Positions 30,460 to 43,439 of a DNA stretch of 64,000 bases are shown in pieces. The first letter of the stretch is position 1; each line of letters begins with the position of its first letter. The stretch lies in contig JAIXMO010000037.1 of NCBI GenBank assembly GCA_025677825.1, positions 62,001 through 126,000 on the forward strand, in the 5' to 3' direction. The translations under genes were made by a program, and so were the position numbers. The DNA is from Helicostylum pulchrum (lineage: Eukaryota; Mucoromycota; Mucoromycetes; Mucorales; Mucoraceae). The notes under the pieces were generated by a model that saw nothing but the letters and a program-made list of their open reading frames with translations, was not told the origin of the DNA and did no database searches.

Positions 30460-32602
30460 TCAGCGGTTGTTATGAATCTTACTATAGATGCGTTTACCGT
30501 AAGGGGTATTACGGATAGAGGGTAATAAGGGACGAATGCGATCAATAAACTGGGCGCGTTGGTCTTGTTCTGCAAAGTCTAGGCATGTTTGAATGACATA
30601 ATTTGCATACGAATCTCGTAAGAATTTTTCCATTTGTGGGTGGTTGGTGATACCTGCAATCAGTTGGCGTTTTGTATCCCTTTCTGCTACACGGATACAC
30701 TATATAAAAAAATATATTAGCAAAAAAAAAGGCAAAGGGGTTTTTTTTAATAGGCTAACCTTTTCAATTACGTTGGAACTAAACTTTTGTACAGATAGTT
30801 CACGTATAGGATCAATAAATCGACGTATTAAATTATCCGAGTACTTGGCATCACCCAACTCTAATACATATTGTACAACGTAGTTTCCGAAAGGGTCTTG
30901 AACAAGTGGTAAAGCATGTTGTGTAATTACATTCACAAGTTGAGTCTAGTGCAAGGAGGAGAAGGGCGGGGGGGGGGGGGAGGGGAAAGGGAAAGAAGGG
31001 GGGGGGGGGAGAGTTAGTAATTTAGTTTTTAAAAGAGTATAAAGTATAAAAACCTTTTGTGTGGGTGTAGCGTGGTCAATACAACGTTGGTAGACACAAC
31101 ATCCATGTTTATGTGATGCAACTTCAATACAGTGCCGACTCACCGTATCATAAATAAATTGGTTATGTTCGGGACTTAATTTATGTAGGCATTTTTGTAC
31201 GACGTGGTTACCGTTCAAGTCTTTAATTAAAGCAACTACATTTGGTTCCAGGGCAACAATGACGGCCTGAATCTGATTAAATAGTTAGTAACTATTGTTG
31301 TGTGCGTGTGTCAGTAAAAAAAAACTTACTTGTCTTTTGGTAGAGAGAAACTCGATTAGCTTTTGTACGGCTCTTGTACCATGCATACTAAGACAAATCT
31401 TTAAAAATTGGGGAGCAATGACTTGAACAATACATGAGCGCTGAGTATCATCACACTTTTCCAACAACTTTTGACAGAGGTAATTACCAAAGGGATCAGT
31501 CATCAACTCGACAAAATGCAAGTGGATTTCTTTATAAATCATATCAACGTTTGATTTTGATTCTTCCAGTTTTAATTGCAAGAACCTACATCCATGTTGG
31601 TCTTTGCATAATTCAAACAACTTGTCTTGAAATTCAATTAATTGTAGTCCCGCAAATTTATTGTTGTTGTTGTTGTTATTAGTTACTGCAACATCAGAAT
31701 CAGATTTTTTTTCTTGTTGTGTATTACAAGTTGAGGAAGAGTTGGAGTATCGGAGTGAAGGCACAGATTCGGTAACATGTGAGTAGGTACAGGTGTCTTT
31801 GGTAGTACAGTAGCCATATTGACGAAATTGTTGACATGGCTCAGATGTGATATGGTATGCACTGAGTGCAGCAGTTGTCATTTGAAGATCACAATTGGAT
31901 AATATGGCCTTGTTGTTTGTAGTATTAGTAGAAGAAGTGGTAGTAGAAGCGGTGGTGGTAGGTGTGGATTGGTTTAGCCAACCGTGAGAAAACCTTCTGG
32001 CTGGTTGAGCATAAAATGCAGATTGTCCAATACTACTACTATTATTATCTGAGTAAGCTGAATTGTTCCAATTTGATTTACTTGCTTCCAACTCTAGATC
32101 CGATGTAGCAAACTATACATTAATAAAGAAATTAAAAAAAACATTTACATGTGTATGCGTAATTTCATATTACCAATCCATAGTTGGTATTGTTATTAAA
32201 CAAGTAACGTGAACGTAAATAATTATTTTGTTGAAATAAAGTAGTAGCTGCATTTAATAGTCAAAATTAAAACATACACATATATATATATATATATTTG
32301 GATTTACCTGTGGTGTTATCATCAAAGAATGATGATGATTGGCTATTGATTGAACCTACATCTATACTAAATGATCTCGAAGGTGGTTTCGTAAGGAAAT
32401 CAATAGGTGTATCATAGTGACTGAATGACTTTTCAAATAAACTATGTGTATAATCATTTGTTTTAGTTGAGGCAAAGTGAACGAAAAATTTCTTTTTTTG
32501 TTACCTTCTGCTTTCGTCGTTTGAATTACGACGTGATCCAGGTACAGAACGCGATGCTACATCTTCTGTAACATATTTTGCTTGTTTCTCAATAGTCATC
32601 AT
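30460..32602 (-). CDS. PUF-family RNA-binding protein with CCCH zinc finger
   Basis: Cytoplasmic post-transcriptional regulator that binds 3' UTRs. Seven exons, 32602-32505, 32441-32308, 32247-32174, 32112-31330, 31272-31054, 30945-30760 and 30699-30460, join to 577 residues. The N-terminal third is Ser/Asn/Thr-rich. A CX8CX5CX3H finger (CQQFRQYGYCTTKDTCTYSH) follows. Then come eight Pumilio repeats. Their recognition tripeptide regions, in order 1-8, are GCRFLQ, NYLCQ, TRAVQ, NHVVQ, CCVYQ, NYVVQ, SNVIE and NYVIQ. SNxxE in repeat 7 between NYxxQ repeats is the UGU-reading signature. The protein ends right after repeat 8, as usual. One donor (30972-31054 end, GTTTTT) is weak but the frame joins. 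The intron between exons 5 and 6 holds long G runs on the plus strand. Confidence 0.93.
30960..31012 (+). repeat. G-rich tract in PUF intron (potential G-quadruplex)
   Basis: Runs of 13, 4, 3 and 11 consecutive G separated by 1-6 bases on the plus strand. On the transcribed (minus) strand this is a C/T-rich tract immediately before the intron acceptor. Confidence 0.85.
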
Positions 32603-34225: not shown

Positions 34226-34484
34226 TTGACACATAAATACTTTATTGACTCATTTTTTATTCGTATAGTCGATTAAAAAATCAGGTGATTTGAACAGGGG
34301 ACTCAGGTATATCAACAGCATATAATATAATGTAGTTGAAGAAGATCAGTACATATTACACACCTGGTCATTTTTGTTTCAAAAAAGGCAAGTCAGTTTT
34401 TTTTTTCTTGAAATCAAAATTCTAGAATATAAACTTACAATGTAAACTTCTACTAGTTTTTAATACTAGGAAATGGTTTTTTTT

Positions 34485-37400
34485 TTATCTTCGAAAGATG
34501 GCAGGGACCTCTCCGGTAGCAATTACATTATACGATATATAATGCATATTTCTTGATGCATTTATGTCTCTTTGCCATAGTGTATTACACGTCTGATTTA
34601 GGCAGAGTAACACGCTGAACAAAGTAACATCATCAATTTCAACATTTTCAGTATCGTTTCTGGAGCAATTGGAGCAGGTCTATTTTTTATAATTATTATT
34701 AATTTATGAAAGTATATATTTAAAGCGTAATCAGTTACCTTGGAGGTCATGTATTCTGTAACAGGAACAGTTACTAGTAGTCCTTCACGCTCGGCAATCT
34801 TTAACTTCTTTACGAGACGTCTTGCTAATCCTGGAATGGTACCTTTCATCGAAGAAGGAAATACGGCGTCTCCAAGAGCAACTAGAGGGATCCGATAGTC
34901 TTGCTCAAATGGTTTTAGCTTTTTATTTCTTTTCTCTTCTTTAGCCTTTCCTTTTCCCTTTTGCTTGACTGTTTTTCTTTCTTCCCGACTTCTTTTCTTC
35001 TTTCTTTCTTTCTTGTTTCCTCTCTTATGATCCCTACCAGTTTGCTTAAATTCTCGTTTTAAATACTTTTTTCCACCAGTGACAAAAATATTCACCATCT
35101 CGGCGTCAGCGCGTTGTCTGCCTATGTAATTGAGAAACCTTAGAGAAGTAAAGCGATCATCATAGAATCTCACCAGAACATCGATATTATTTAAAACAGA
35201 ATGGATGTATAAAAGAAAGACTTCCATATTAGCTGTCTTGAAAGTAGCTATGTTCCTTTCCGCCTCCGAAAGTTGTTCATCACCATTTTTCAAGTTTAGA
35301 ATTGTTTTGTTTGATTTTTTAAAGCCTGCGCGGGTGTAGTATTCAGCAGTTGAGTATTTTTGAACCTGATGAGAGTCATTTCCGTGTCCATCAGAGGCAG
35401 TAAAAATGTTAGTTTGACCGGGATCAGCACCCCATAAACAAAAATTATCATTCAATTCACGTGGTGTAAAATCATTAAGATCCAAATCAGGGAGATTGGC
35501 GTCTGGATTTTTTGGACCTGCCAAAATAAAGTCAATACCATAGCCATCCGTTCGTACCATATTAGTGAACATCTGTTTTCCATTACTATAAAGCAATAAA
35601 AATTTAGCGTAAAGCTTTGTAAAACTAGAATTGTGGTTATACTTACTAATTAAGGTCAAGCCTTAGGCGTTCGAAATCGAATACTTGACTAAATAATAAC
35701 GTTGCCAGTTCATGTTTATTTTCATTATCGCCTTCGTTATTGTCATCATTATTTCTATTTCGATTTCGATTTAAACTATCCAATGTTATTCCGGTTTCTC
35801 TTTGAGCTTTAAGCAATAAAGACCTTAAATGTTTAATATCTATTTCTACATATTTGCGAGTGAATGAATACATTGGAACGAGAGAGAAAAGCTTGTATTG
35901 TTTTATAGATAGCGCCATATCTGGTCTGAAACAATCTTGAATTCTTGTGTTTAAACGATTCTCGTTATTTTCGTCTAGATAAATTTCGGAATTAATAATT
36001 TGGTTGCGAGTTGTTTGTATTAGATTCATAATGTATTCATATTGAGCAACGTCCAATTGTAAGGTATTCTCTAAGTTGATGTTGTCACGAAGAGATCTGA
36101 AAGCCAAGAATGACAACCTGTTTCTTTTTTTTCTGTTGAATACTTTAAAAAGATCATTTCCGCTCAAGACTTGCTTCATCCATGCATATGATGCTTCTGT
36201 CTGGACCTCGTTGAAAGTTCTAATATTGTCATTATTGAATCTTTCAAAATAGAGCAAAATTTGATACATATGTTGCAGAAAAAGTCCCGGATTAGTAGTC
36301 ATAAAAGTCATAGTGACAGGTTCGTTTGTAATTCTACTTGCGCCGATAATGGTGTTGACTAAAGCTATATTATTAGGCGTGTTTTGTATTGTTTCTGGCC
36401 ATGTTACACGCGTGGATGAGTTAACAGAATTATTTAAAACATATTGGCAGAGTCTATTAATATCACCTGCATTCAAATTCTAAGTAGAGCCATAAAATGA
36501 AAAGGTTAGCTTTTTTCTTTCTTTCTTTCTTTTCTATTAATATATGATACTTACAAAGACTTCCTTTAATCTGATTTTTATATAGTTTCGAAGTGTTTTT
36601 GTATAATTTTCAGAAACATGGTTAACTAAATTTTGAGCAGAAATATTGGCCATAGAAGCAAGTGCATTAGCATAAACATTTCTACCCGGCTCCATTGCGA
36701 CACGATTATTAAGAAACTGACCGTCATATTGTTCAAAAACTGCGTTAATATTTGCTCTCGGAAGATTTGGATTTGTATTTGTTATGTTTCTTCCTATAGT
36801 TCTCTGTATACATGCATAGAAAAAAGCTTGATGAAATACGATAGGTGGTAAAGATAAGTTTCGCGACAAACGGTTTCTTATATAATAGGAAGCAAATACT
36901 TGGGACTTAATTGCGACTTGGCGATAATCATCAACTAATTCTAATATTTTTCTTAAAAATACTTCTTTTACACGCTGTTCTAAAATAATTAAGTCTTATA
37001 AATCATGTTTTCTAATAAACCTTCTGTAACATTTGCCAACACTTTCTTCAATAAACTCGTCAGTACTTTGTACATGGCCGGGGCATAGAACGGATCTCCG
37101 AGAAGAATGAGGCGTTGCAGTGTCATAACGACCTTTTTTGGTATAGGTCGGACAAGGTTTTATAGGATTTGGGTTTCGAGTAGCTCTTCGACGGGCGTCC
37201 TTTCCAGCTGCTCGTGCTCGTCTGTTAGCGAGCTTTTGGGCCTCGGACAGAATATTTCTTACACCAGCTCTAATAGTTGCAGTGGTAGAACGGGTACCTC
37301 CAGAGGCTGGTATTGAGGTTGAAGTAGACGCAACAGCTGATGAGATAGAGCCTTGCTGAGAAGTAGATGAACCTGGAACTTCTTGTCTCTTTCGAGGGCG

Positions 37401-37627
37401 ACCTTCATCGGTATCGTCTTCTCTTTCCCTTTTTCTTGTAGGAGGAGTAGCTTTATTCATAAAAATAATAAATCAGATTAGTTGAAACGATATTTGTCAT
37501 GAAAATATATCGTTTTATATATGATAAAGAAAATTACCTGTTTTATTTGGGTCATACCTCTTGCTCCTTTGGCAAAGAGGGCTTCTTGCGCCCTTATGAC
37601 CAGGTTTACGACAACGTTTGCAGCGCT
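34485..37627 (-). pseudogene. Fanzor (eukaryotic TnpB-like RNA-guided nuclease), one in-frame stop
   Basis: Segments 37627-37538, 37450-36555, 36479-35647, 35585-34739 and 34679-34485 join in one frame of about 950 codons. The C-terminal half is a TnpB/Fanzor nuclease. RuvC-I is in LWGADPGQTNIF (Asp codon 35425-35423). RuvC-II is VPVTEYMTSK (Glu codon 34756-34754). A zinc finger follows (CSNC … CLNQTC), and RuvC-III is RDINASRNM (Asp codon 34568-34566). The motif across intron 4 reappears only after splicing. The N-terminal third has a CX2CX4H knuckle (CKRCRKPGH), a basic Ser-rich linker and a second Cys/His cluster. The frame carries a TAA at 36998-36996; either it is a nonsense mutation or a 48-nt weak-donor intron removes it. 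The 5'-most exon was not found. The nuclease identity is strong; the intact/broken state is open. Confidence 0.85.
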
Positions 37628-38496
37628 CTAATTATAATATAAAGTATAAGAAAAGGCTTTTTTTTTATTCGTAATATAGGCCAGATTAAGAAGTCTTTGC
37701 GCGTACGAAGGCATTGGTATTTAATTGAAATATTTAAAAGATAATAGAAATAGAAAGAGAGAGAGAGAGAAAAAGAAAATATATTTATATATGTTTGGGT
37801 ATTATTTAATCGGTAACAATGAAAGTAGATATATTCAGGGGAAAGTATACTGCTGTAAACAAACAAAGCAATAAAAAAAGGAGTTCCCGGATGTACTACA
37901 CCTTAAATGTTGATACTGAGCACATCTTTCGGTTTGCAAACTATAAAAAATAACTTTTTCTTTTTCTATGTTTGTATTTAAAAAAAGACTTGACAATTTT
38001 TTAAAAAAAAAGACTTATTAAAGAGTTTGGAAATGATATATTTGCTAATATATTATTAAGTCAATAAAATCAATAAAAGTAAAGCAAAATATTTTATTAT
38101 TTGAAGATTTCAATGACAGTTGAATCAGATGATGGTAAAATAGGGAGTTGTTTATAATAGTAATCATCATAACAAATATACAAGAAGTACCCCTTTTATG
38201 GAAGTGAACGAACCGAGTTGTATGTGGTATTATTTGAGTGAACGGATCACGATAAATAAGAATAGGTAATTTGCGTAACAGTGTCACGGACATCTTTTAT
38301 AAGGAAAATACACAAAATTCATTTTACTGGGTCTGATAGAGATCATGCTGACAATAATTTTGCTTCTGCAAAAAAAAAAAACTTACTGTCTGTGGTGGTT
38401 AAAAAATACTACAATTGATTTCCTGATATATACACGCTGTATATTCACATCTTTTGATTACTATTTTGAAGTCTGCTTTGCTGCTTTATTTGGCAA

Positions 38497-38525
38497 GTAT
38501 AGATTTACCTGTAGTAAATCTATAC
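38497..38525. repeat. Perfect 12-bp inverted repeat, 5-nt loop
   Basis: GTATAGATTTAC, loop CTGTA, GTAAATCTATAC. No U-tract follows directly. It may be a transposon-end remnant or a structured RNA element; nothing in the sequence decides. Confidence 0.8.
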
Positions 38526-38789
38526 CGCGTAGATATCACTGCTTTTAAATGCAGTTACGTCTGATCCACTACTCATCTCACCGTTCTCCCCCGAACAAAG
38601 TAAAAGAAAGGCTATTTTTTTTAACTTGAGATTTAAATTACAAAGTTATAAACACCCGGTTTTTTTTAGTTGGGAAGACTCTCTTTTGTAAATCTTTTTT
38701 ATTATTACAAATATAGTCAGACATATATTTTACTTTAAGATGAAGGAATGTATTCGTTACTAAAAAAAACTTATATATTATTTACTAGA

Positions 38790-39060
38790 ATGTACAGCTT
38801 TGACAGTTACGCCTTGGTAAGTTTTATTTATAGCTGAAATAACATGAAAGACAAACACTGATAAAGATATGCTTTTAGTTTAGACATCATCCATAAATTA
38901 TTATCCGAGGTAAGTAATCTAACATTTTATCTGTATGATTTATTCTTGTTCCTATTGCTAATTATTCCTTTCCTTGTCATAGTGTACATACTAAAAGTGC
39001 TCTAACAGTCAAAAGTGTGTCAAGCGTTTCTTACATGGTAATTATATACAATTCTAGCTA
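38790..39060 (+). other. Possible tiny multi-exon ORF
   Basis: ATG at 38789 region (MYSFDSYAL) runs to a GTAAGT donor. Candidate acceptor TTTTAGTTTAG and donor CCGAG/GTAAGT bracket a short exon, then TCATAG opens VHTKSALTVKSVSSVSYM, which ends at ATG/GTAATT. Together about 36 residues are in frame, but the next acceptor gives an immediate TAA. No family recognised; could be chance. Confidence 0.2.
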
Positions 39061-39578
39061 CATCTGGGTTAAATATTAACGATATTTGTGAATTTGGTTG
39101 GTTTAAGAAAACCGGCCATTTTTTTAACGTTTACAGTAAAGAGTACAGTGACAAACATCATTGCTGTCAATAATTTTCAGATAAAGTAAAAAAGTAAGTT
39201 CAACTGTACCAATTAAGACTAAAATCCTGTATTTCAGCAGTGCGGCGTAAAAAAGGTTAATTTACTTTTTTTTTCACCCTGACTTAAAAATTATAAAGAC
39301 TTGTAAAAACCATTCCTTTCTTCTTTATCTTTATATTTTCTTTTTTTTTTCATGTAAAAAAGCTTTTTTAATTTATATATTATTTCATTTTATTTGTTGG
39401 GGGACTTGTCCTTCCCCCCCCCCCCTTTATTTGTTGTTAATCCTATTGGCTTTAAATCATGGATGATGATTAAGGTCACGTTTTTAACAAGTCACGATAG
39501 ATGGCATAATAATCGTTTCTCTTTCTCTTTTTTTCCTTTTTTTTTTCTCTCTTTCTCTTTTTTTATAAGCAAAAAAAA

Positions 39579-42203: not shown

Positions 42204-43439
42204 TTATTGATCAATGGAAGCAGCGATACGAACATTAGGCACATTATGATTATAAACGACATAATTATTCTTTAAAAAGGTATCACCGATAATGGAGAAA
42301 TCCAAATGGCTGTAACCGAAACCAGCGACACAGTAAGTCTCGTTTCGCTCAAAGATAAGTGAATCAGAGGGGACCTTGAAAGTTTTACCGTTCATTGAGA
42401 ACATCAAGGGCTTTAACTTGGAATCGTCACAAGAAATGGTGAAAGTACCGTCCATATTATCTGTAGCCTTGTACGCCTTTGCTAATTTTCTAGCAATAGC
42501 GTCAGGGAACACTAAAAGTGTAGTACCTGTATCCAAGATACCCTTGAATGAGCCGTACACTTTCTTAGTACCCACCTTGAGACTATCTACCTTTACGCCC
42601 CAGAATCCAGCAGAGTTATCAACGGGGACAGTGGCAAGCGCGCCCTTGAATTTCGTCGTGTTGAAGCCTCCGAATAAAAATTCACCACCGCCGTTTTTAA
42701 TGGCTTTACCAAGATGGACACCAAAGATGGGCGACTTGATCAGTTTTTTAGAGATCATGTTGTCCATGGGGGTCTGAACGCCCTTGACGGTAGTGATCTT
42801 GTTGAATCCAAGGCCCAAGAGTCCGTCGACGGGGTCAGCGGCAAAACTTTTTGATTGGAGTTTGGCAAGGCCAAAGGTTTGGTTTTTGATCAGGATACCG
42901 CCCAAATTGATGGTGTCACGGCCCAAGATACCGTTGGCGTGTGAACCGTCACCGTATTGAATTTCCCAGCGGCGGCCGTCTTCTTTGTATGTGCTTGATT
43001 TATTAGCGTTAAAACGTGTATGCGATTTACAAGAAGAGCACATGGTAGAAGCTACATATAAAGTATATTTTTAATACAATAAGTTTTTTTTTTATATAAA
43101 AAGTGTGTGTTGTTTACCTAACCAGAAATCAGAAGAACCGGTATCAAAATTTACTTTGAATTTTTGAGGTGGGTTGCCTACTTTGACAGTACCGTAATAC
43201 TGGATATCATACAGATGATCTACAACAGGCACGGAGCCTGTCTTGAGAGCTGTCATGGTGTTGGTCGAGTTGCCATGGTCAGTAGTAAATGGTTGAGTGC
43301 TGTATTTGGCATTGGCGCGATTAACTGCTCGTTTGGCGTTGGGTTTATAGTGAGAGTTCCTTTCAAGCGTAAATGATAAGTTGGATGAAGCTGTTACTGA
43401 AACCAAAAATAGAGATATGCAAGTAAGTGAAAATTTCAT
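42204..43439 (-). CDS. Secreted aspartic protease (pepsin family A1)
   Basis: Extracellular acid protease of the rhizopuspepsin/mucorpepsin type. Two exons, 43439-43118 and 43051-42204, give 389 residues. A signal peptide occupies about residues 1-18 ([15 protein letters not shown]). A basic propeptide with KR at 36-37 follows. The catalytic Asp are Asp99 (FDTGSSDFW) and Asp281 (ILDTGTTLL). The flap tyrosine lies in IQYGDGS (Tyr140). CSSC just after the first active site is the usual small disulphide loop. The C-terminal [15 protein letters not shown] matches the family. A TATATATA stretch at about 43486-43498 sits some 50-60 bp upstream of the start. The convergent neighbour is the SLC44 gene, ending 147 bp away. 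Confidence 0.96.

Follow-up and report, generated by a model that had tools for sequence, protein, structure and literature searches.

A decayed Fanzor1 copy in a TA-ended DNA transposon of Helicostylum pulchrum and its right end, dispersed in the genome with and without Fanzor genes

The Helicostylum pulchrum locus described here very probably holds a decayed Fanzor1 copy inside a DNA transposon with TIRs that end in TA. In intact relatives of this element, an omega RNA from the right end would guide cutting of the empty site at a predicted TAM, HCTA, and repair would restore the element. The window, a stretch of 64,000 nucleotides (C100:62001–126000; the assembly has 168 contigs and totals 32.2 Mb), carries the Fanzor locus on its minus strand, flanked by a PUF-repeat frame (31288–32112) and a frame with an aspartyl protease domain (42207–43070).

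Conserved residues in the last two exons, in the order TDG, DPG, Glu, CxxC-x20-CxxxxC and RD, mark the minus-strand gene as a Fanzor1 of this Mucorales fungus. The WED TDG lies in VRTDGYG, the RuvC-I DPG in GADPGQ (from 35425), and the RuvC-III RD in QRDINASRN (from 34571), while the RuvC-II Glu (34756, EYMTSK) stands exactly six residues ahead of the first zinc-finger Cys (E-YMTSKT-C; Ealt). In the available text of PMC10711439, DPG and a relocated Glu form the Fanzor fingerprint and TDG is characteristic of Fanzor1. The gene also fits the Fanzor1 motif D-X(125,275)-[TS][TS]-XX-C4 zinc finger-X(5,50)-RD as defined in the available part of PMC3627910. Its zinc finger, CxxC-x20-CxxxxC, falls outside CxxC-x(12,18)-CxxC, the pattern with which PMC10711439 searches for bacterial relatives. 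The initial annotation had listed DPG, the Glu of EYMTSK, the zinc finger, and RD as an ordered core with every catalytic residue in place; all are there, along with the TDG, which it had not listed.

Homology points to the same family. Relatives include P0003 from Mucor flavus, with 70% identity to the window gene model, and P0001 from H. pulchrum, which covers 80% of that model at 94% identity. The Pfam domain Cas12f1-like_TNB is above cut-off in P0001 (1.7e-7), P0003 (5.5e-7), and P0006 (5.1e-7), and the last window exon alone stays under it (19.5 vs 26.3 bits). A profile of 14 relatives (A3) matched two solved chains, SpuFz1 (4.5e-17, the match starting in WED and reaching the C terminus) and GtFz1 (3.3e-4); its matches to LaTranC (6.7e-6), Cas12g (~5e-4), and TnpB-like chains (~0.015) were confined to the zinc-finger end. 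These significant matches to solved Fanzor1 chains, obtained with the 14-relative profile, bear out the Fanzor/TnpB-type assignment of the initial annotation. A profile from seven close relatives had no Fanzor among its structure-chain matches and a PDB search with the window model alone matched nothing, so we regard the window protein as a divergent subfamily. In single-sequence PDB searches, P0016 matched nothing of the Fanzor kind and P0012 matched only LaTranC (0.066). An AlphaFold model of P0003 built from 14 sequences, in line with the fold test suggested by the initial annotation, was too poor for a fold search (pLDDT 48.9, pTM 0.29); we take the profile match to solved Fanzor chains to answer the same question.

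The gene and the element are both larger than the interval 34485–37627 given in the initial annotation. An MPSY piece at 37714 places the start of the gene further upstream, and the limits of the element are 39061 and 34357. The parts of the gene are as follows.

37658–37714, minus strand: N-terminal piece MPSYAQRLLNLAYITNKKK, frame -2 (tblastn of P0003, E 2.7e-4)
37539–37628, minus strand: zinc-knuckle piece ERCKRCRKPGHKGARSPLCQ.., frame -1, out of frame with the N-terminal piece (tblastn of P0003; predicted 3' splice boundary)
36555–37448, minus strand: coding stretch TPPTRKR..LKEVF, broken by an in-frame TAA (relatives and tblastn)
36996–36998, minus strand: in-frame stop TAA (alignment A1 and the C132 copy)
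36554–36480, minus strand: intron (splice sites predicted from GT/AG and relatives)
35647–36479, minus strand: exon, N-terminal/REC region (splice sites predicted from GT/AG and relatives)
35646–35586, minus strand: intron (predicted splice sites)
34739–35585, minus strand: exon with WED TDG, RuvC-I DPG (35425), and RuvC-II Glu (34756) (predicted splice sites)
34738–34680, minus strand: intron preceding the last exon
34485–34679, minus strand: last exon, with zinc finger CSNC..CLNQTC and RuvC-III RD (34571) (motif reading)

Splicing does not yield the single open gene that had been proposed. Alignment A1 comprises seven relatives (gene predictions), the seventh of which begins downstream of the TAA site; the six that span it (P0001, P0002, P0003, P0004, P0006, and P0007) all read through the TAA at 36998–36996, and the DNA of the C132 copy has no stop at this position. 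Relatives such as P0003 start with MPSY and a zinc knuckle, followed by uninterrupted coding. In the window, the MPSY piece and the knuckle lie in different frames with fewer intervening bases than P0003 requires, and the C132 copy is ~97 bp longer at window 37663–37660, judged by match coordinates. The stop and the N-terminal frame change interrupt the frame that a working Fanzor1 would need. It is very unlikely that the gene works nonetheless, with the stop inside an unannotated intron (e.g., 37042–36980) and translation starting past the broken N-terminal part. A model with this intron does yield a single 905-aa frame, and P0001 is annotated from an identical internal start, MNKATPP, in the same species; yet the same six relatives code straight through the 37042–36980 stretch, the C132 copy does without the stop, and the intron's donor was picked solely because it removes the stop. 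Intron 1 of our first gene model (donor after 37043) was rejected because relatives code continuously across it. We read the window Fanzor as a broken copy with its reading frame disrupted in at least two places; together with the missing left transposon end, this speaks against the working RNA-guided nuclease that the initial annotation had placed at the locus.

Decay extends to other family copies in this genome. Eight of them were compared over 114 to 912 codons from 37448 onwards, and every one, C132 included, has a stop, an indel that shifts the frame, or both. The C132 copy is nearest to intact: it is free of stops and has lost 20 nt at one place, in a Lys/Glu-rich stretch that is omitted from some relatives' gene models. 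Values of dN/dS against the window range from 0.29 to 0.48 for all eight copies, which is compatible with past selection on the Fanzor protein but is not a formal test. A low-complexity Lys/Glu-rich insert lies between RuvC-I and RuvC-II of the window gene (~34895–35040); P0003 has a similar stretch, the P0001 and P0002 gene models lack it, and several copies have indels there.

The surrounding element was delimited by homology to the other copies.

34357–39061, minus strand: Fanzor1 element copy, left-truncated, right end present (limits of homology to other copies)
34357–34471, minus strand: conserved right-end block of 115 bp, putative omega RNA scaffold (recurrence in the genome)
34357–34370, minus strand: right TIR (..TGACCAGGTGTGTA), ending in TA (inverse match to left ends TACACACCCGRYCA)
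34337–34356, minus strand: predicted native guide, formed by the host DNA that adjoins the right TA (by analogy with SpuFz1 architecture in the available text of PMC10432273)

Matches of eight other Fanzor copies stop at 34355–34357 on the right, where flanks vary from copy to copy. On the left, homology ends at 39060–39061, and the copies on C113, C115, and C150 run ~250–310 bp beyond, up to the TIR. No left-end TIR was found in the window at ≤1 mismatch; allowing 2 mismatches gives two matches, as many as chance would produce. We rejected 37891 as a start of the element because it reflects the edge of our DNA query. Complete copies start with TACACACCC or nearly so and typically end with GGTGTGTA; they have TIRs with TA at both ends, as in Tc1/mariner-type elements, and the window copy has the right end only. 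A cognate DDE transposase was not found in the 14 of 17 long window frames outside the Fanzor gene that were scanned with Pfam. No empty site that would show a TA duplication on insertion was recovered among the seven joined flanks searched. A repeat makes up the left flank of the C115 copy; as read at three other places, it does not run on into the right flank of that copy, so it reveals no empty site. The C132 copy carries the stretch at window 38312–38530 in the opposite orientation to the window copy.

The first base of the 115-bp block lies 14 positions beyond the end of the stop codon, so the block (34471–34357) sits where the initial annotation had expected an omega RNA, at or just past the 3' end of the gene. 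That annotation is partly supported: its family assignment, the catalytic residues it lists, and the position it predicts for the omega RNA are upheld, and a working nuclease at this locus is not. Structural predictions for the block gave no support for a structured RNA. In a consensus fold of right ends (alignment A4, built without four divergent right ends), none of 12 predicted pairs changed on both sides, fold energies were no better than shuffles in six of six right ends tested (z 0.32 to 1.66), and Rfam had no match within the window. Centroid folds of right ends L003 and L021, from divergent groups, place a hairpin of different letters near the position of the first hairpin, which is no more than suggestive.

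These fold energies and the covariation result leave room for a different cause of conservation, in which the block, which ends in the TIR, is kept for transposase binding instead of RNA coding. We consider this unlikely, since the left end is conserved over a far shorter stretch. Fanzor copies carry two types of left end (L029/L031 vs L028) whose outer parts beyond the TIR have no mutual match at 1e-6, yet their right ends are shared over ~115 bp, as are Fanzor-free ones. The block also begins just past the stop codon, as it does in SpuFz1 loci with sequenced omega RNA in the available text of PMC10432273. We therefore retain the block as a putative omega RNA scaffold.

DNA to the left of the elements is not random. 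Among all 32 exact left-end matches (matches with one mismatch were left out), C precedes the left TA at 23 sites (flanks 18% C; p 3.7e-11), and G is never found one place further out from that C (0/32). The C is present in 10/10 left ends of the GATCAGAAAAGTTA type, 10/13 of the GGCCA type, 1/5 of the AATCGTG type, and 2/4 of the rest. Window-family copies have the GATCAGAAAAGTTA type on C113, C140, C150, and C166 (one mismatch) and the GGCCA type on C115 and C132; all six of these copies with a readable left end show the C, five as TC and one as AC. G follows the right TA at 12 of 40 right ends, a count that omits seven stretches without a recognisable end in one set of 20, as well as L043, L050, L053, L054, and L056 (no clear end) and L046 (repeats the L045 flank). 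The bias is one-sided (23/32 vs 12/40, Fisher p 8e-4), as a left TAM would give, and we therefore predict HCTA as the TAM. It is quite possible, though we lean away from it, that this C belongs to the element or reflects the sites that the transposase prefers. At 30%, G following the right TA is commoner than G in the left flanks (13%), and a palindromic target preference of the transposase may therefore account for part of the flank bias. Against this, the motif changes while the TIR stays the same: A precedes TA in 4/5 left ends of the AATCGTG type vs 0/10 of the GATCAGAAAAGTTA type (p 0.004; small sample), and TA itself precedes the AATCGTG-type end in 4/5. The C24 member of the AATCGTG type (L128, C24:653900–657900) has the TIR TACACACCCGATCA followed by a PpFz1-like Fanzor (1.9e-47 to PDB 9cf0); such a protein is shown for this member alone, with a weak hit at C162. 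We had considered the C24 element as a transposase carrier and rejected this because it encodes the Fanzor. A search for an unoccupied target of the predicted window guide gave no clear candidate: at ≤3 mismatches there were 15 matches vs 11 in a control, and the top match was the locus itself.

With HCTA retained as the predicted TAM, the following mechanism can be proposed for intact relatives. The right end would be transcribed, and the Fanzor protein would bind the resulting omega RNA, encoded by the 115-bp block after the stop codon. This RNA would run on into the flanking DNA, the source of its guide. The complex would then cut an empty site where the TAM precedes guide-matched sequence, the TA of HCTA being common to the TAM and the element end. 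Repair of the cut empty site would copy the element back, and the transposon might be retained in this way.

Right ends also occur apart from Fanzor genes. Besides the gene-matching copies, our first DNA search found the 115-bp block alone at 25 further places (73–96% identity, some partial), 21 of which lie in 20 stretches fetched for reading. Eighteen of these stretches have no Fanzor similarity at 1e-3, and in the other two (L048 and L049) a Fanzor stretch lies on the strand opposite to the right end. Four stretches with two ends measure 258, 962, 1733, and ~1790 bp (the last, L043, with an unclear right end), and their longest frame is ≤106 aa. A 19-base core motif of the block occurs 41 times in the genome, without mismatch in 25 cases and with one in 16; relaxing the limit to ≤3 mismatches gives 115 matches vs 20 for the reversed pattern. 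Sixteen of the 41 lie ≤2.5 kb downstream of a same-strand Fanzor hit and 25 do not, although some of these 25 may still have a Fanzor because the hit set can miss exons and lineages. One of the orphan motifs, at C92, belongs to a ~285-bp 3' piece of the window's family. The core motif is also found just downstream of Fanzors only 26–36% identical to the window's (L003, L021, L023, L072, L073, L078, L080, and L081). By these matches, the window right end is one of a widely dispersed group, in which some ends are linked to a Fanzor and others are Fanzor-free.

A 39-bp piece at L091 (C57:544493–544566), with TC before it, joins a left TIR to a right TIR and looks like an element reduced to its ends. 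L046 (C98:323032–330145) has two Fanzor-free right ends, inverted, ~1.4 kb apart, and with nearly identical outer flanks; a third copy of this right end at L045 (C145:85456–90569) marks them as a duplication.

The right end at the window locus could supply RNA usable in trans by other Fanzors. We extend this very tentatively to a reading that we hold to be rather unlikely as a whole. One TIR and right-end RNA platform would be common to several Fanzor1 lineages and to Fanzor-free elements (down to 258 bp, with a 39-bp remnant), and dozens of dispersed right ends of ghosts and pseudogenes, including the window's, would provide the few intact Fanzors with guides in trans. The TAM (HCTA vs TATA) would follow the Fanzor lineage while the TIR stays constant. 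One possibly working Fanzor of another lineage is L002 (C158:321664–324849), a stop-free 476-aa frame 36% identical to P0012, at which no right end of the window type was recognised. In Thamnidium elegans, P0015 (INT48_002413; 727 aa) combines about ten Myb repeats with a segment that matches 24% of the searched region at 75% identity to the Fanzor, which may be a fusion, an insertion, or a gene-model error.

The system is of a known kind, as both the Fanzor family and ghost loci have been described. We found no account of the window Fanzor family in H. pulchrum in the literature searched, which included few subscription papers. The available text of PMC3627910 describes other families in Mucor circinelloides (MuDr-type MCi-4 and unclassified MCi-2 and MCi-5). 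Like the Mariner-type Fanzor1 elements with TA target duplications in that text, the H. pulchrum elements have TIRs with terminal TA, and Fanzor1 is their sole recognised gene; unlike them, they come with no transposase in the window frames scanned, and their TA duplication is putative.

The nearest parallel is SpuFz1 and its element Spu-1 in Spizellomyces punctatus, for which we rely on the available text of PMC10432273. There too, a Fanzor1 lies between inverted repeats and a conserved right-end region runs from the stop codon to the right repeat. That text reports 42 Spizellomyces loci with full or partial Fanzor genes and 134 ghost loci that keep the ends and lack the gene, and many H. pulchrum copies likewise have element ends and no Fanzor gene. 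A conserved dinucleotide precedes the left repeat in both, CA in Spu-1, where the TAM is CATA, and HC in H. pulchrum. The SpuFz1 omega RNA has a 75-nt scaffold and a 14–15-nt guide, and ghost RNAs were functional in human cells; the H. pulchrum block is 115 bp, its RNA and cutting are predicted, and the window copy is broken. Unlike SpuFz1, the window protein represents another Fanzor1 subfamily, linked by profile only.

PpFz1 of Parasitella parasitica (PDB 9cf0) is, in the available text of PMC11423790, a Mucorales Fanzor1, as is the window protein, and the PpFz1-like protein at C24 stands behind the same TIR as the window family. The window protein nevertheless belongs to another lineage, PpFz1 being absent from the PDB matches of the window protein and its profile. 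The H. pulchrum genome adds to the fungal examples in which the right end of a Fanzor element has spread in the absence of the nuclease. It also has two Fanzor lineages behind the same TIR, which allows them to be compared in a natural setting. With these two features one can test whether the left-flank motif is set by the Fanzor and not by the transposase, and whether guide RNAs work in trans.
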